This document shows, piece after piece, positions 46,241 through 52,573 of a stretch of 64,000 nucleotides of DNA. The stretch covers positions 6,731,001 to 6,795,000 of the forward strand of contig NZ_CP015136.1 of NCBI RefSeq assembly GCF_001618865.1. The letters are read 5' to 3'. Numbering within the stretch: position 1 is the first letter of the stretch; every line of letters starts with the position of its first letter. Source of the DNA: Luteitalea pratensis (lineage in GTDB: Bacteria > Acidobacteriota > Vicinamibacteria > Vicinamibacterales > Vicinamibacteraceae). The position numbers were made by a program, and so were the translations under genes. The notes under the pieces are model-generated. The model searched no databases and was not told where the DNA came from. It saw only the letters and a program-made list of their open reading frames with translations.

Positions 46241-47242
46241 CTAACCAGCGAGCAGGTGGCGGGCAATCCGCTGGTAGTCATCGACGGCCCGGTGCAGATC
46301 CGCGATGGCGACCGACTCGTGGTCGGTGTGTGCGACGTGAATGGATCCCGGTCCGTACATCAGGCGCGTTCCCCACGCATTGAGCAGCGGAGCATCGGTC
46401 GTGTAACCCACCACTTCCTTTTCGAAGCCGTCGAGGGTCGCCATGTGGAGCGAGGGCACATGGTAGACGTACTCGATATCGACCAGCGGGCGGATCGGCT
46501 CGAGCACCGCCAGCACTTCTTCGTAGGGCGTGACGATGCGAAAGAGGAGATCGGCCGTGGCCGAGGGCGGAATCACGTTGGGCGCGAGGCCGCCGTTGAT
46601 CGCGCCGATGTTGAACTGCGTGGGCCCGAGCACGCCGTCGATCGGCAGCGCCATCGCGCGCACCTGCTGCAGCGCGTCGAGCAGTTTCTCGATCGCCGAC
46701 TCGCCGAGGTGCGGGTAGCCGGAATGGGCCGCGCGGCCCTTCGCGTGCAGCTTCACGCGCACCACGCCGCGATGCCCGAGCGCGAGCCGGCCCTCGGTCG
46801 GCTCGCCGTTGACCAGGAAGCGGGTGACTCCGCGGGAGAGTTCGTCGGCGATCATCGCCCCGTCACTGCCCCGCTCCTCGCCGACCAGGAACAACAGGCC
46901 CACGCGCGTCTCGCCGGCGGCGCGCATCGCCTCGACTGCGGCGAACTGGCTGACGAGGATGCCCTTGGCGTCGCAACTGCCCCGTCCGTGGATGCGATCG
47001 CCCTCGACCCGGCTCGGCGTGAAGGGCGGTACGCAATCCATGTGCGTGGAGAAGATCACCTCCGGCGTGCCGACGGTCGCGAGCACGTTCACACGCGCGC
47101 CGGTGACGGTCTGGCGGGTCACGGCGTACCCACGCTGCTCCAGTTCCTCGCCGACCATCACGCAGACCGCGGCCTCGTCGCCGGTCGTGCTCTCGACGTC
47201 CACGAGCCGACGCGTCAGCGCGACGACGTCTAGCGGATCCAT
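46241..47242 (-). CDS. dapE: M20 peptidase, DapE/ArgE-like (probable succinyl-diaminopimelate desuccinylase)
   Basis: A 333-residue zinc amidohydrolase. Metal ligands: STHMDCVPPF (His-x-Asp near 66-68), GRGSCDAKG (Asp), GEERGSDGA (catalytic Glu pair) and a late HTDHESV His. It lies directly after dapD, overlapping by 13 bp, which fits the desuccinylase step after DapD and the transaminase. It also resembles acetylornithine/LysK deacylases, so the DapE role is from context. Confidence 0.75.
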   Translation of the reverse strand: MDPLDVVALTRRLVDVESTTGDEAAVCVMVGEELEQRGYAVTRQTVTGARVNVLATVGTPEVIFSTHMDCVPPFTPSRVEGDRIHGRGSCDAKGILVSQFAAVEAMRAAGETRVGLLFLVGEERGSDGAMIADELSRGVTRFLVNGEPTEGRLALGHRGVVRVKLHAKGRAAHSGYPHLGESAIEKLLDALQQVRAMALPIDGVLGPTQFNIGAINGGLAPNVIPPSATADLLFRIVTPYEEVLAVLEPIRPLVDIEYVYHVPSLHMATLDGFEKEVVGYTTDAPLLNAWGTRLMYGPGSIHVAHTDHESVAIADLHRAVDDYQRIARHLLAG

Positions 47243-48081
47243 CGTTCGAGCTCGGTGCGGGTGTCGGTGCGGCTGTCTCGGTACTTGACGATCACCGGCG
47301 TGGCCAGCGAGAGTTTCCACTCGACGCCGGGCCCCTCGGTGACGGCACGAGCGCCCGGGACGACGACCGCGCCTTCCGGAATCACGAGCGGTTGCCCGTT
47401 CTCCGGCCGGATGATGCGGCCGTTCGGCAGGTCGTAGACCGGCGTGGACCCGGTGAGGATGGTGCCGGCGCCGATCACCGCACGCGCCTTCACCACCGCG
47501 CCCTCGTAGATGCCGGTGTTGCCGCCGACGAGCACGTCGTCCTCGATGATGACGGGCATTGCGCCAACCGGCTCGATCACGCCCCCGATCTGGGCAGCGG
47601 CACTGAGGTGCACGCGAGCGCCGACCTGCGCACACGAGCCGACGAGCGCGTGCGAGTCGATCATCGAGCCCTCGCCCACGTAGGCACCGATGTTGACGTA
47701 CATCGGCGGCATCGCAATCACGCCCCTGGCCAGGTGCGCGCCGTCGCGCACGGACGAACCGCCCGGAACGATGCGGATACCGCTGCCGGCGCCGAATCGC
47801 TGCAGCGGCAGCGTGTCCTTGTCGAAGAACGGCCACCGGCCGTGATCCATCGACGCATCGACGAGGTCACCGAAACGGAACCCGAGCAGGATCCCCTGCT
47901 TCACCCAGCTGTTCACCACCCAACCGGTGGGCGAATTGGCATCCGGCGAGGCGGCACGTACGCTGCCCTCCGACAATGCGGCGCGCAGGCGCCCGAACAG
48001 TTCACGTCCTTCTTCGCGGGAGGCGTCGGCGCCGGCGGCCCAGAGCCGCTCGACGTCCTGACGCAAGGCCTCGATGCTCAT
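47230..48081 (-). CDS. dapD: 2,3,4,5-tetrahydropyridine-2,6-dicarboxylate N-succinyltransferase
   Basis: A 283-residue left-handed beta-helix (hexapeptide) acyltransferase that succinylates tetrahydrodipicolinate. N-terminal helical part (1-100, ALRQDVERLWAAGAD), then hexapeptide repeats with RGVIAMPPMYVNIGAYVGEGSMID and SHALVGSCAQVGARVHLS, both usual DapD segments. Start overlaps the dapA stop (ATGA). It directs the succinylase branch of the diaminopimelate pathway. Confidence 0.93.
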   Translation of the reverse strand: MSIEALRQDVERLWAAGADASREEGRELFGRLRAALSEGSVRAASPDANSPTGWVVNSWVKQGILLGFRFGDLVDASMDHGRWPFFDKDTLPLQRFGAGSGIRIVPGGSSVRDGAHLARGVIAMPPMYVNIGAYVGEGSMIDSHALVGSCAQVGARVHLSAAAQIGGVIEPVGAMPVIIEDDVLVGGNTGIYEGAVVKARAVIGAGTILTGSTPVYDLPNGRIIRPENGQPLVIPEGAVVVPGARAVTEGPGVEWKLSLATPVIVKYRDSRTDTRTELERWIR

Positions 48082-48986
48082 GCGGATGTGGTCTCTGCCA
48101 GCAGGCCCAGATCCAGGGCGATGCGGCGCAAGGTCTGCAGGCTGTGACTCGTCGGCGCGACCATCGGCAGCCGGTACGTGGGTTCGAGCAGCCCGGCCAA
48201 CGCCATGACCGCCTTCACCGGGCCCGGGTTGGACTCGAGGAAATTGGCCTGCAGCAACGGCAACAGCCGCTGGTGGATCACCCGCGCGGCGGCGAAGTCG
48301 CCACGCTCGCAAGCCTCGACCAGCCGCGCCATGTCGGACGGCACCTCGTTGCCCGCCACCGAGATGACGCCCTCACCACCGAGTGCCATGACCGGCAGGG
48401 TCAGCGTGTCGTCGCCCGACAGCACGAGGAAGTCCGCGGGGACGCGGCGGCGGACGTCCGCGATCTGGAACACGTTGCCAGATGCTTCCTTGATGCCGAC
48501 GATCTGCGGCAGCTGCGCGAGCCGCTCGGTGGTGGCCGGCTCGATGTTGCTGCCGGTGCGCGCGGGCACGTTGTAGAGCACGATGGGCAGGTTCGTGTTC
48601 GACGCAATCGAGGCGTAATGCTGGAACAGCCCTTCCTGCGTCGGCTTGTTGTAGTACGGCGATACCGACAGGATGCCGTTCGCGCCCGCAGCGGCCATCG
48701 CATGCGCGGACTCGATCACCTCGGCGGTGTCGTAGCCACCCGCACCGGCGAGGACCGGCACCACGCCCTTGACCTCGTCCACGACAAGCTCGACGACGAC
48801 GCGTTTCTCGGCCGCCGACAGCGTCGGCGCCTCGCCCGTGGTACCCACGGGAACGAGGAAATGCATGCCGGCCTCGATCTGCCGGCGCGCCAGGCGACGT
48901 ACCGCCGCCTCGTCAATCCGTCCGCTCACGGTGAATGGCGTCACCAGGGCGGTGCCACAGCCGGTGAAGGGTCGTCGTGGGGTCAT
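48078..48986 (-). CDS. dapA: 4-hydroxy-tetrahydrodipicolinate synthase
   Basis: A 302-residue class I aldolase-type TIM barrel. It joins pyruvate to aspartate semialdehyde. GTTGEAPTLS, SPYYNKPTQEGLFQHY, YNVPARTG (Tyr) and the Schiff-base lysine segment IVGIKEASGN are all seen. Start ATG 48986 is preferred; an ATG 12 bases upstream is also in frame. The gap to dapB is 193 bp and holds repeat arrays and hairpins, so separate expression from the genes before it is possible. Confidence 0.95.
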   Translation of the reverse strand: MTPRRPFTGCGTALVTPFTVSGRIDEAAVRRLARRQIEAGMHFLVPVGTTGEAPTLSAAEKRVVVELVVDEVKGVVPVLAGAGGYDTAEVIESAHAMAAAGANGILSVSPYYNKPTQEGLFQHYASIASNTNLPIVLYNVPARTGSNIEPATTERLAQLPQIVGIKEASGNVFQIADVRRRVPADFLVLSGDDTLTLPVMALGGEGVISVAGNEVPSDMARLVEACERGDFAAARVIHQRLLPLLQANFLESNPGPVKAVMALAGLLEPTYRLPMVAPTSHSLQTLRRIALDLGLLAETTSA

Positions 48987-49000
48987 GGGGTCAAGCATAA

Positions 49001-49179: not shown

Positions 49180-49881
49180 TCAGCGTTCAGCGTTCTCCGT
49201 GATGCCGAGGACGTCGCGCATCGAGTACCAGCCCGATCGCCCGTGCACCCAGCGTGCGGCGCGCAGGGCGCCATGCGCGAACGTGGCACGATCGCGCACG
49301 GTGTGTGTCAGCGTGACCGTCTCCGCGGGGCCGTCGAACCCGGCCACGTGCGTGCCCGGGATGTGCCCGGCACGCGTCGACGACACATCCACGTGGCGGG
49401 TCAATCCTGCCTGGCGCATCGCATCGAGCAACAGCAACGCCGTCCCCGACGGCGCGTCGCGTTTCTTCGAGTGATGCGCCTCGTGCAGGAACGCGTCGTA
49501 GTCGTCCAACCGCTCGACGGCCGCACTCACGACGCGGACGGCCGCCTCCATCAGGTAGGCACCGACGGAGAAATTCGAGGCCACTACAGCGCCGGCGCCG
49601 CGACGCTCGACAATGGCCCGTGCCGTCGCCTCGTAGTCGCCCCAGCCAGTGCTTCCGAGCACGAGCGTCGGTGCCAGCGTGCTCAAGCGCTCGAGGTTGA
49701 CGCGCAGTGCGTCGCCGGTGGCAAAGTCGATCACCACGTCCGCACCCGTCGACGCCGCCGCCGCCCACGTCTCGTCGACACTCGCACTCGTCAACACGCC
49801 GACGACCTCGACGCCATGCGCGGCCGCGTGCAGTCCCACGAGCCGTCCCATGCGGCCGTGCCCGAACAGGACAGCGCGCAT
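49180..49881 (-). CDS. dapB: 4-hydroxy-tetrahydrodipicolinate reductase
   Basis: A 233-residue NAD(P)H-dependent reductase. The glycine motif is GHGRMGR (8-14), the catalytic segment HEAHHSKKRDAPSGTA near 134-149. Length is slightly short. Its last residues ENAER come from the GTTCAGC repeat seen at other gene ends, so its C-terminus has been re-made by a repeat. It starts on the lysC stop (TGATG). Confidence 0.93.
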   Translation of the reverse strand: MRAVLFGHGRMGRLVGLHAAAHGVEVVGVLTSASVDETWAAAASTGADVVIDFATGDALRVNLERLSTLAPTLVLGSTGWGDYEATARAIVERRGAGAVVASNFSVGAYLMEAAVRVVSAAVERLDDYDAFLHEAHHSKKRDAPSGTALLLLDAMRQAGLTRHVDVSSTRAGHIPGTHVAGFDGPAETVTLTHTVRDRATFAHGALRAARWVHGRSGWYSMRDVLGITENAER

Positions 49882-51266
49882 CAGGCCACGACTCCAGCCG
49901 GTTCGACCTCGAGGCAGAAACGCTCATGCACCCGCGACATCGCCGCCTGCAACTGCGACTGCGGCAGGACGACGGTGAGGTTGCGGCGCGCGCCCGCCTG
50001 CGACACCATCCGCAGCGGGAACTCGTCGAGGGCGCCGAGCACGCGTGCGGCAAGGCCCGGCTCGAGCCGCAATCGTTCGCCCACCGCGCACAGCAGCGCC
50101 ATCTCGGACTCGACGCCGACCTCGGCAAACACCGACAGGTCGGCCACGATTTCGTCGAGGGCACGCCGATCCTCGATGGTGATCGACACGCTCACCTCGG
50201 AGGTCGTGATCACGTCCACCGACGTCCGGTAGCGCTCGAACACCTCGAACACGCGGCGCATGAACCCGTACGCGGCCAGCATCATCGTCGAACGGATGTC
50301 GATCACGGTGATGTCACGCTTGCATGCGAGTCCGGTGAGCGGCGCCTCGGGCAGCGGCGGGTTGGCCGTGATCGTCGTGCCCGCGACTTCCGGACGATGC
50401 GAGTTCAGGATGCGGACGGGGATGCCATCGGTGACCGCTGGAGCGATGGTGCTCGGGTGCAGCACCTTGGCACCGAAGTACGCCAGCTCGGACGCCTCGG
50501 CGAACGACAGCGATGGCAGCGGCCGCGCTCCCTCGACGATGCGCGGGTCGGCCGTCAGCATGCCGTCGACGTCGGTCCAGATCTGGATCTCGGCGGCGTG
50601 CAGTCCGGCGCCGAACAGCGATGCGGAGTAATCCGATCCGCCACGCCCCAGCGTCGTCGTGATGCCCTCGGCCGTTGCCCCGATGAAGCCTCCGAGCACG
50701 GCGACCACACCAGCCGACGTGATCGGTAGCACACGCTCCTTCAGCCGAGCCGCCGTGGCCGCCTGGTCGGGCAGGGCGTGGCCGTGGTCAGCACTGGTCA
50801 CGAGCACGCGTCGTGCGTCGACGCACTGGGCGGCCGTCCCGAGTTCGGTGAGAGCCGCGGCGACCAGACGGGAACTCGCCAGCTCGCCCATCGCGACAAC
50901 CGCGTCTCGCGACCGCGGCGATACCTCGCGCAGGACGGCCATCGCGTGCAGCAGCGCCGCCGCCTCGCGCCATTGGCGTTCGAGCGCGTCGAGCACGTCG
51001 CCTTGCTCGTCGGCCCGGGTGAGGAGTGCTTCGGCTGCCGCGCGATGACGATCGCGCATGACCGCGACCTTCTGCGACGCCAGTTCCGCATCGCCACGCT
51101 CGACCGCGGCGACCGCGTCGAGCAGCTGATCGGTGATGCCGGACATCGCTGACACCACGACGACCGGCGCACCGCTCGTCGCGTACTCGCGCGCGACGAT
51201 CCGCGCCAGGCGACCAATGGCCTCCGGGTCCTTGACCGACGTGCCGCCGAACTTCATCACGACCAT
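49881..51266 (-). CDS. lysC: Aspartate kinase, monofunctional with ACT domains
   Basis: A 461-residue aspartokinase that phosphorylates aspartate. KFGGTSV at 5-11, SRDAVVAMGELASS, TLGRGGSDYSA and WTDVDGMLTADPR form the kinase site; two ACT domains after about 300 (TVIDIRSTMML and NLTVVLPQS) bind lysine or threonine for feedback control. Nine bases separate it from asd. Confidence 0.95.
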   Translation of the reverse strand: MVVMKFGGTSVKDPEAIGRLARIVAREYATSGAPVVVVSAMSGITDQLLDAVAAVERGDAELASQKVAVMRDRHRAAAEALLTRADEQGDVLDALERQWREAAALLHAMAVLREVSPRSRDAVVAMGELASSRLVAAALTELGTAAQCVDARRVLVTSADHGHALPDQAATAARLKERVLPITSAGVVAVLGGFIGATAEGITTTLGRGGSDYSASLFGAGLHAAEIQIWTDVDGMLTADPRIVEGARPLPSLSFAEASELAYFGAKVLHPSTIAPAVTDGIPVRILNSHRPEVAGTTITANPPLPEAPLTGLACKRDITVIDIRSTMMLAAYGFMRRVFEVFERYRTSVDVITTSEVSVSITIEDRRALDEIVADLSVFAEVGVESEMALLCAVGERLRLEPGLAARVLGALDEFPLRMVSQAGARRNLTVVLPQSQLQAAMSRVHERFCLEVEPAGVVA

Positions 51267-51275
51267 GGCGTCACC

Positions 51276-52322
51276 TCAGAGCAGGCCTTGCGCCTGCATG
51301 AGCTCGGCATTGAGCAAGGCCGCGCCGGCCGCGCCGCGCACCGTGTTGTGACCCAACGCCACGAACTTGTGCTGGAGGACCGGGCACGGGCGCAGGCGCC
51401 CGAGGAAAACCGCCATGCCGTTCTCGCGCTCGACATCGAGACGCGGTTGTGGCCGGTTCTCCGCTTCCAGATAAACGAGCGGCCTGGGCGGCGCGAACGG
51501 CAACCCGATTTCCTGGGGCAGGCCGCTGAACGCGTCGAATGCTGCGCGGATGTCGGCTGCGGTGACGCTGGAGGCAAAGCCGACCGAGATCATCTCGCTG
51601 TGGCCGTCGATGACCGGGACCCGCGTGGTGTGGGCGCTGATGATCACCGGGTGTGGCTCGACATGGTCGCCGGCGAGCCTGCCGAGGATCTTCTGCGGCT
51701 CCATCTCGAGCTTTTCCTCCTCGCCACCGATGAACGGGACGACGTTGCCGAGGATGTCGAGCGAGGGCACGCCCGGGTAGCCCGCACCGGAGACGGCCTG
51801 CAGCGTGACGACGTTGCACGTGGTCAGGCCGAGCGCTCGAAGCGGCGCCAGCGCCATCGCCAGGAACATCGTCGAGCAGTTCGAGTTGGTGACGATGCCG
51901 CCCTTCCAGCCGTAGGCGGACTTCTGCTGTTCGAGCAACTCCAGGTGGTCCGGGTTGATTTCCGGGATCAGCAGCGGCACCAGCGGGTCCATCCGGTAGT
52001 TGCGCGCGTTGCTGACGACGATGTGTCCGGCATCGGCAAAGGCCTTCTCGAGATCGCCGGCGACGTTGGCGTCGAGAGCGGAGAACACGAGCTTCGGACC
52101 GTTGCCGGGGACGGGCCGCTGCACGACACGCGCGGCGGCAGCGTCGGGCATCGGGGTGGCGAGCTTCCAGTTGGCGGCGTCGGCGTACGTCTTCCCTTCC
52201 GAACGCTCGCTGCCGGCCAGCCAGGTGGCTTCGAACCACGGATGACCGGCAAGCAACCGCACGAACTGTTGACCGACCGTGCCGGTGGCGCCAAGCACGC
52301 CCACTGCTACTCGAGACGACAT
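51276..52322 (-). CDS. asd: Aspartate-semialdehyde dehydrogenase
   Basis: A 348-residue enzyme reducing aspartyl phosphate. GATGTVGQQF (11-20) binds NADP; catalytic Cys149 is in TNSNCSTM, and the acid-base His lies in ISAHTTRVP near 230. It is the archaeal/yeast-like group by these motifs (SNCST, not the GGN type). First gene of the operon; an attenuator lies ahead. Confidence 0.94.
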   Translation of the reverse strand: MSSRVAVGVLGATGTVGQQFVRLLAGHPWFEATWLAGSERSEGKTYADAANWKLATPMPDAAAARVVQRPVPGNGPKLVFSALDANVAGDLEKAFADAGHIVVSNARNYRMDPLVPLLIPEINPDHLELLEQQKSAYGWKGGIVTNSNCSTMFLAMALAPLRALGLTTCNVVTLQAVSGAGYPGVPSLDILGNVVPFIGGEEEKLEMEPQKILGRLAGDHVEPHPVIISAHTTRVPVIDGHSEMISVGFASSVTAADIRAAFDAFSGLPQEIGLPFAPPRPLVYLEAENRPQPRLDVERENGMAVFLGRLRPCPVLQHKFVALGHNTVRGAAGAALLNAELMQAQGLL

Positions 52323-52353: not shown

Positions 52354-52385
52354 AAACCCGCCTGCGCGGGTCGCGCGGCGGGTTT
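52354..52385 (-). terminator. asd: Attenuator-type Rho-independent terminator before asd
   Basis: On the minus transcript the stem is AAACCCGCC / GGCGGGTTT (9 bp, perfect), extended inside by GCGCG-ACC-CGCGC, followed by UUUUGUCGUU. It ends about 30 bases before the asd ATG. An ACCCGCGC in the inner stem (complement of 52364-52371) is fully complementary to GCGCGGGT in the leader (52446-52453), giving an antiterminator choice. Confidence 0.8.
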
Positions 52386-52425
52386 CTGTGGTGCACGTAC
52401 GCTTTGTGGAGATGAGCTGTTCTGC

Positions 52426-52512
52426 TCAGGACGCGTACACGAGCCACCCGCGCGCGGAGTCGAGCTCCCGCTTTCGAGTGGTCACGGTAATGGTGATGAT
52501 GGTGCGCGTCAT
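52426..52512 (-). CDS. Threonine/isoleucine-rich leader peptide (attenuation)
   Basis: A 28-residue reading frame starting MTRTIITITVTTRK: six Thr and three Ile codons (ACG, ACC, ATC, ATT, ACT) within the first 12 codons, then RELDSARGWLVYAS and stop. This resembles thrL of enteric bacteria. A promoter-like pair lies upstream and an attenuator stem downstream. No good ribosome site is seen just before the ATG, and a GTG 18 bases upstream is also in frame. Scarce charged Thr or Ile tRNA would stall ribosomes here and favour antitermination, inferred. Confidence 0.7.
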   Translation of the reverse strand: MTRTIITITVTTRKRELDSARGWLVYAS

Positions 52513-52543
52513 GGCCAGGTGCCGGATCACTCCGGCGGCCCAT

Positions 52544-52573
52544 AGATTAGCCTCCGGCCGCGCGGTCTGGCAA
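52544..52573 (-). promoter_or_regulatory. Predicted promoter of the asd-lysC-dap operon
   Basis: TTGCCA (52573-52568) and TAATCT (52549-52544) on the minus strand, with 18 bp between. Transcription would start about 25 bases before the leader peptide ATG. By resemblance to sigma-70 consensus only. Confidence 0.45.

Follow-up and report, generated by a model that had tools for sequence, protein, structure and literature searches.

A predicted leader-peptide attenuator before an acidobacterial asd-lysC-dap operon and its relatives with exchanged control codons across the order

The DNA directly upstream of asd in the window (the whole analysed stretch of 64,000 nucleotides, positions 6731001-6795000 of a 7,480,314-base single-contig genome) probably encodes a ribosome-mediated attenuator of an aspartate-family operon. 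It would belong to an order-wide family, sense threonine and lysine in the window, and be retuned elsewhere by codon swaps. Translation of the leader, stalling of the ribosome, the actual signal and the efficiency of termination are predicted for this attenuator. A broader proposal, to which we give an even chance, is that one and the same attenuator has been retuned between lysine (dap operons), threonine/isoleucine plus lysine (the genus of the window) and methionine (asd-(lysC)-(hom)-metY/metX operons), that it is translated near-leaderless in many lineages and paced by CGA codons, and that it would represent the first lysine- or methionine-responsive leader-peptide attenuator. Throughout, 'order', 'genus' and the families f1 to f15 are labels of kinship, f1b being a second genus of f1. 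The closest named relatives of the asd gene of the window come from Acidobacteria and Vicinamibacteraceae MAGs.

Organization of the operon and its leader

The sequence-only reading had placed the element before an asd-lysC-dap operon. This operon is confirmed by NCBIfam for asd, lysC, dapB, dapA and dapD, and runs on the minus strand into a dapE/argE-like gene:

51276-52322, minus strand: asd, with its start at 52322 (NCBIfam NF006416, 457.9 bits; TIGR00978, 428.6 bits)
49881-51266, minus strand: lysC, lysine-sensitive aspartokinase type (NF006570, 457.5 bits, cutoff 455)
49180-49881, minus strand: dapB (TIGR00036, 125.4 bits, cutoff 122)
48078-48989 (approximate start), minus strand: dapA (TIGR00674, 324.3 bits), extent taken from operon comparison
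47230-48078 (approximate start), minus strand: dapD (NF008808, 274.1 bits)
46241-47242 (approximate start), minus strand: dapE/argE-like gene, the last of the operon (56% identical by tblastn to its positional counterpart in G048)

The presence of asd, lysC, dapB, dapA, dapD and the dapE/argE-like gene, whose name we presume from context and recall, marks it by gene content as the diaminopimelate/lysine operon. Its lysC is nearest to lysine-sensitive aspartokinase 3 in NCBIfam. In the same genome, hom (L210, 4632000-4646000) is located after a LysR-type-regulator-like gene and near a second aspartokinase-like gene, both named by eye. No strict terminator was detected in the 14 kb scanned around this hom, nor in the 14 kb around ilvB.

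The following elements are encountered upstream of asd:

52568-52573, minus strand: -35-like box TTGCCA, read directly
52544-52549, minus strand: -10-like box TAATCT, read directly, with an 18-nt spacer from the -35-like box
52426-52512, minus strand: leader ORF of 28 codons, MTRTIITITVTTRKRELDSARGWLVYAS, with its ATG at 52512; a leader is present in 4/4 congeners
52354-52385, minus strand: intrinsic terminator hairpin with AAACCCGCC/GGCGGGTTT arms and an inner hairpin, followed by TGTCGTTG

The 28-codon leader with six Thr and three Ile codons can be read directly as first described, all nine lying within codons 2-12. In a census of ATG, GTG and TTG starts with 12 open codons over the whole window, it stands alone among 4439 starts in having at least nine Thr or Ile in codons 2-12, and 20 first-order Markov windows gave no such start (maximum 6). 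The Thr/Ile density of the leader is far above chance. The leader has one Lys codon only, and an in-frame GTG at 52530 offers an alternative start.

The promoter-like boxes are both present at 52573-52568 and 52549-52544, but they are weak (4/6 and 3/6 of consensus) and a sigma-70 scan reports none. At the same places the four congeners carry TTGCCA (three) or TTGCAA (one), and TACTCT, TACTCT, TACGCT and TACCCT. The RNA is predicted to start near 52537. The ATG follows TAATCT by 31 nt and the in-frame GTG by 13 nt, while three congeners have a 3/6 -10 box 7-9 nt ahead of the start; the genus of the window has weak -10 boxes only. In congener G003, a second, short asd contig has just 51 nt upstream. 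As to the terminator, which had been called strong and U-tailed, the hairpin at 52385-52354 is strong (-23.2 kcal/mol without its outermost pair), but its U tract is modest and short (TTTTGTCGTT when counted from the arm onward). With a simpler terminator scan, only the inner part (52372-52355) is reported.

Conservation across the order

The asd gene was searched in 100, then 162 genomes of the order, and the upstream DNA of 100 of the better matches was fetched in addition to the own locus, partial matches at contig ends being mostly left out. Of these 101 loci, 25 have a lysC match ahead of asd (23 of them within 400 nt), and the remaining 76 were treated as asd-first. Among the latter, 66, including the window, have a strict terminator within 420 nt. 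The sequence-only reading had made its case depend on a conserved leader in homologues; such a leader was accepted in 67 of the 76 asd-first loci and in 4/4 congeners. These 67 comprise 64 loci with a strict terminator plus L157, L183 and L186, where the hairpin was accepted by eye only.

The nine asd-first loci without an accepted leader are L098 (terminator only), L101 (masked), L111, L114, L135, L150, L161, L163 and L166. A leader match in L111, beside a tRNA-like stretch, was false and dropped by eye. L135 (G070) encodes a Lys-rich ORF with tandem GPVKKC-like repeats whose end lies some 5 nt ahead of asd; a strict terminator was not found there, and this is perhaps a different, translation-coupled design.

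As a control, a strict terminator precedes one of 36 hom/dapA genes (up to 700 nt before the gene), and no leader was found before hom (30 loci) or the dapA-like genes of genomes with a Met leader (6 loci; 0/36 together). The layout is absent from 23 of the 24 lysC-asd loci that were scanned. The region upstream of lysC in these loci, 0.9-2.6 kb before asd, holds a strict terminator in one of 24; the sequence of the 25th locus, L117, was too short and fell outside the scan. The lysC-asd loci (25/101, e.g., L097, L108 and L124) carry a different lysC of about 27-36% identity and belong mostly to f8 and f14. In other orders of the same class, all 14 asd loci in 193 genomes yielded one hairpin (L213) and, by eye, no leader. 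The asd loci of other classes were scored for Thr/Ile only.

Translation signals of the leaders

The motif-chosen leaders were picked partly for K or M motifs and their starts partly for a good -10 box. As this choice partly selected Lys, Lys enrichment was tested solely by 43 leaders chosen by position and blind to composition: a -10 box of at least 5/6, an ATG or GTG 5-13 nt later, 15-45 codons, and a stop 10-75 nt before the terminator. Of the 66 terminator loci, 43 yield an ORF in this way, always the motif-chosen one. Lys occurs in 43/43 of these ORFs, and at least twice in 37/43. It accounts for 8.6% of their residues, compared to 2.4% for the 5' ends of asd in 99 fetched loci; part of this excess is nucleotide composition, since the same stretches have 5.4% Lys in frame +2 (0.3% in frame +1).

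The 67 leaders start with ATG (56) or GTG (11). In 44 of them, the genus of the window not included, an in-frame ATG or GTG is preceded at 5-13 nt by a -10 box of at least 5/6. Such a box stands before 46 of 268 in-frame starts; for the remaining ATG/GTG the figures are 4 of 557 (same strand) and 2 of 901 (opposite strand). The commonest distance from box to start is 9 nt. The 46 good-box leaders have a -35 box of at least 4/6 in 23 cases, against 5.1 expected, and a TGn extension in 20. Since RNA usually starts 6-7 nt after the -10 box, 5' leaders of 0-6 nt are predicted for these 44 leaders, which suggests near-leaderless translation in those lineages and not at the ATG of the window. In the f5 alignment (23 leaders), gap runs come in multiples of three in 107 of 111 cases within the ORF versus 7 of 88 between stop and terminator; this evidence is weaker than it appears, because runs repeat across related rows and the ORFs themselves were aligned. 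Leaders of this family consist of a short ORF with control codons for the product of the operon, and translation of this ORF is predicted.

Predicted switch between terminator and antiterminator

Folding of the leader RNA of the window defines four further elements:

52468-52482, minus strand: critical codons T11 T12 R13 (CGA) K14 (AAG) R15, from the fold scan
52444-52481, minus strand: hairpin 1:2 (CCACUCG ... CGGGUGG, with an inner hairpin), overlapping the critical codons
52446-52456, minus strand: segment 2 (CGCGCGCGGGU), predicted 5' strand of the antiterminator
52372-52383, minus strand: segment 3 (ACCCGCCGCGCG), predicted 3' strand of the antiterminator and 5' arm of the terminator

In the proposed mechanism, a ribosome supplied with sufficient charged tRNA-Thr and tRNA-Lys would pass TTRKR and reach the stop codon. 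The hairpin at 52385-52354 would then form and transcription would end before asd. Under shortage of Thr or Lys, the ribosome would wait at codons 11-14 and hairpin 1:2 would be blocked; segment 2 (52456-52446) would pair with segment 3 (52383-52372), no full terminator would form, and asd-lysC-dapBADE would be transcribed. Lys would thereby represent the core shared by the family and the Thr/Ile codons an enrichment in the genus of the window, while the family would be retuned to Met in f4 and f11, where the operon is a methionine operon.

The pairing between GCGCGGGT (52453-52446) and ACCCGCGC (52371-52364), put forward earlier as the antiterminator, is indeed complementary, but the fold prefers the neighboring register of 52456-52446 with 52383-52372. 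The energies are -44.0 for the former register, -50.8 for the preferred one and -43.8 for the terminator state; the former would also occupy the inner arm of the terminator.

The effect of ribosome position was modeled by leaving the RNA free to fold from a point 13 nt downstream of the first A-site nucleotide. In the window, the probability of the full terminator is 0.95 at codons 1-7, 0.62-0.65 at codons 8-10, 0.00-0.02 at codons 11-15 and 0.28 at codon 16, and returns to 0.95 from codon 17 to the stop. An offset of 10 or of 15 nt displaces this profile by about one codon. Only codons 11-15 (TTRKR) and, weakly, codons 8-10 fall in the predicted antitermination window, the early Thr/Ile codons 2-7 being outside it. 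The same contrast is seen in 5/5 members of the genus (0-0.1 at the TTRKR positions versus 0.92-0.96 at the stop), with a broader trough in congener L091. Antitermination in this genus may be partial, because the antiterminated fold of the window keeps a 6-bp hairpin (ACCCGC-GCAG-GCGGGU, -11.0 kcal/mol) beside the U tract; the local pairing of this residual hairpin amounts to 0.66-0.81 across the genus. The whole leader of the window folds no better than shuffles (z -1.36).

Over the 63 non-Met leaders, the mean terminator probability is 0.51-0.53 with the ribosome at positions -5 to -1 from the last Lys, 0.73 at this Lys and 0.94-0.97 from +3 onward. Within the six codons that end with the last control codon, the lowest value is under 0.5 for 42 of the 67 leaders, where shuffles predict 6.2, and under 0.1 for 29, where they predict 3.1; 25 leaders never drop below 0.5. 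The minimum is below 0.5 in 20/23 leaders of f5, the drop is clear in 5/5 of f1, and it is partial in other families. If the last control codon alone is considered as ribosome position, the terminator probability is below shuffles in just 31/67 leaders (p 0.14) and below the stop state in 57/67, which points to a modeled stalling effect situated mostly upstream of the last Lys. In the case of the four Met leaders, stalling is without effect; as the terminator probability stays at 0.85-1.0 at every ribosome position, only kinetics or another mechanism could work there.

As long as the 3' arm of the terminator is still missing, upstream pairing of segment 3 exceeds that obtained with shuffled leaders in 58/67 cases (p 1e-8). 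Likewise, own 2:3 duplexes beat cross-family swaps in 48/67 leaders (p 7e-6), with a mean of -23.9 versus -21.4 kcal/mol; in f7 and f11 the own pairing is weaker than the swaps. Covariation in f5 is uninformative, as its pairs hardly vary.

Leader type and operon content

Downstream regions were compared in 20 genomes and further genomes including the window, G008 and the loci found by model R1 (see below). In four genomes from two families, Met replaces Lys in the leader, and all four operons carry metY and/or metX and not dap genes. Their orders are asd-hom-metY-metX with only a short lysC match in G009 (hom, metY and metX by NCBIfam) and, by tblastn, asd-lysC-hom-metY-metX in G031, asd-lysC-hom-metX in G040 and asd-lysC-metY-metX in G067. 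Of the other 17 genomes, 15 have dap genes, and G014 and G063 are cut by contig ends after lysC. An accepted Lys/Thr leader precedes 14 of the 15 dap operons (G097 has none), and the window and G008 bring this number to 16. Altogether, 22/22 operons with a Lys/Thr leader have dap genes and 0/22 have metY/metX. G049 (f4) shows asd-metY, its leader being off the contig. Since Met leaders go with metY/metX operons and Lys leaders with dap operons, the control codons appear to follow the pathway.

Model R1, built from f5 only, located the element in G062, G023 and G017 ahead of lysC-dapB-dapA without an asd immediately following the element, and in G115, G015 and G059 ahead of a distantly similar asd-like gene followed by lysC-dapB-dapA. 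All six leaders have Lys (that of G017 was read by hand). As the element precedes lysC-dapB-dapA either without asd or with another asd-like gene, the switch follows the lysine operon and not one asd gene. In L303, L304 and L299 (G015, G059 and G115), a replacement of the first gene seems to have left the switch in place. R1 missed the genus of the window and the four Met-leader genomes. One of its weak matches, at G093:C61 (E 5e-5), is not accompanied by any related gene.

Model R2 was built from 32 diverse leaders without any Met leader; the window is among them and is matched by construction. R2 aligns over its full length to the Met leaders L177 (60.0 bits, E 3.7e-10), L186 (48.8 bits, E 7e-8) and L182 (44.2 bits, E 6e-7) and partially to L183 (26.2 bits, E 0.0025). 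On the 36 hom/dapA controls, its only strong match was L238, a locus where hom and asd are neighbors, so that it includes the asd leader of G014, and on eight of the 14 other-order asd loci the best E was 0.09. The alignment of a Met-free model to Met leaders supports a common origin of Met and Lys leaders, and the Met leaders of f4 and f11 may go back to a single event.

Control codons and competing explanations

The attenuator layout proposed on Thr/Ile is supported and conserved, but Lys is the order-wide core, Thr/Ile belongs mainly to the genus, and a Met form exists. Lys is the commonest control codon across the order, with RK..RKR as common core, and matches the lysine operon; Thr/Ile richness is a feature of the genus of the window, Thr being also abundant in some other families. 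The means per leader are:

f1 (genus of the window, n=5): K 1.0, T 5.2, I 2.4
f1b (n=2): K 2.0, T 7.0
f5 (n=23): K 2.3, T 2.3
f2 (n=17): K 2.2, T 2.7
f10 (n=7): K 3.9, T 2.0
f15 (n=4): K 2.5, T 2.8
f3 (n=1): K 2, T 1
f6 (n=2), f7 (n=1) and f9 (n=1): T 6-7, K 1-3
f4 (Met leaders, n=3): K 0, M 5.3
f11 (Met leader, n=1): K 0, M 2

In the 63 non-Met leaders, position -5 from the last Lys is Lys in 39 and Thr in 16, and Thr is commonest at -3 (20) and -2 (19).

The window could also be read as a pure Thr/Ile attenuator resembling thrL, the thr operon leader of enteric bacteria, with an incidental Lys codon. Nine of codons 2-12 are Thr or Ile, codons 11 and 12 fall in the critical window, and both amino acids are enriched in the genus (Thr z 4.9, Ile z 4.4), yet Lys is likewise enriched in the critical window (z 4.0, 5/5 members) and forms the core of the wider family. 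Moreover, the operon makes lysine, hom is located at another place in the genome and has neither a leader nor a strict terminator, and the Rfam Thr_leader model (RF00506) scores only 13.5 bits on the window (E 5.8), far below its gathering cutoff of 55 bits, like the other weak Rfam matches. We consider this reading unlikely and favor joint sensing of Thr and Lys.

The Lys codons of the leaders are AAG (133) or AAA (13). An Arg codon directly before Lys is CGA in 76/84 cases, compared to 29/220 elsewhere in the same 67 leaders and a CGA share of 9.1% in asd 5' ends. In the window this CGA is located at 52476-52474, and CGAAAG occurs in frame in 55/67 leaders. Three of the four Met leaders likewise have CGA ahead of their last Met, with CGG in an earlier MRM of two of them. 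According to PMC4046918, CGA placed in the his leader strongly de-attenuates. We hypothesize that CGA before a control codon acts as a slow, pacing codon; alternatively, its conservation could result from inherited sequence or an RNA motif.

If such a motif (CGAAAGCGG) were the functional unit, the element would be a structured RNA or protein-bound attenuator and the ORF its by-product, as the conservation of CGA-AAG at the nucleotide level (76/84 and 55/67 as above) might indicate. This is improbable given that -10 boxes precede in-frame starts (46/268) far more often than other ATG/GTG (4/557), that both AAG and AAA occur, that Lys gives way to Met in step with operon content, and that indels in the ORF keep the frame, an argument partly built in by aligning the ORFs. 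In addition, no Rfam family reaches its gathering score in the window and just tRNA does so in 15 related loci; the lysine riboswitch and T-box models presumably belong to the library scanned. Slightly less probable still is a regulatory arrest peptide, whose basic RKR nascent chain would stall the ribosome and sense a metabolite: Arg is found at -1 of the last Lys in 42/63 and at +1 in 57/63 leaders, a pattern favored by the motif choice, but the four Met leaders have no RKR, the residues around RKR are variable, and the part after RKR follows the pairing with the terminator.

Relation to known systems

The ribosome-mediated attenuator proposed here shares with thrL a Thr/Ile-rich leader, a terminator before the first gene and an alternative pairing, but differs from it by the asd-lysC-dap operon, the other phylum, the lack of a sequence-structure match and the Lys core of its family. 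Leaderless amino-acid attenuators have been described, namely trpL of Sinorhizobium meliloti (PMC7298713) and the cysteine short ORFs of mycobacteria (cited in PMC9031893). These resemble the present family in having a short control ORF at or near the RNA 5' end; the amino acids and operons are different, and the near-leaderless start is predicted here, though not for the ATG of the window. The cys leaders have no obvious terminators according to PMC1262725. The same paper gives predicted attenuators of trp, trpS and leuS in Actinobacteria and ilvB leaders with terminators, similar to our case in combining leader peptide and terminator outside Proteobacteria. It describes no conserved RNA structures before the threonine, lysine and methionine operons of Actinobacteria, and lists L-box (lysine) and S-box (methionine) riboswitches and threonine attenuators elsewhere (PMC1262725). 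A terminator survey of 2010 includes Acidobacteria among the groups with predicted attenuators, hardly any of which were assigned a function, and the words lysine, threonine and aspartate are absent from its main text (PMC2965389). Our search of open-licence papers returned no lysine or methionine leader-peptide attenuator, and none assigned in Acidobacteria.

Besides riboswitches, T-box control is usual for lysine and methionine operons. A leader-peptide attenuator for lysine or methionine in Acidobacteriota would thus widen the classical mechanism to operons that are usually described with riboswitches or T-boxes. The conservation of CGA ahead of the control codon hints at a pause built into the leader. 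The change of control codons together with the genes of the operon provides a natural experiment, in which the evolution of attenuator specificity would be testable.
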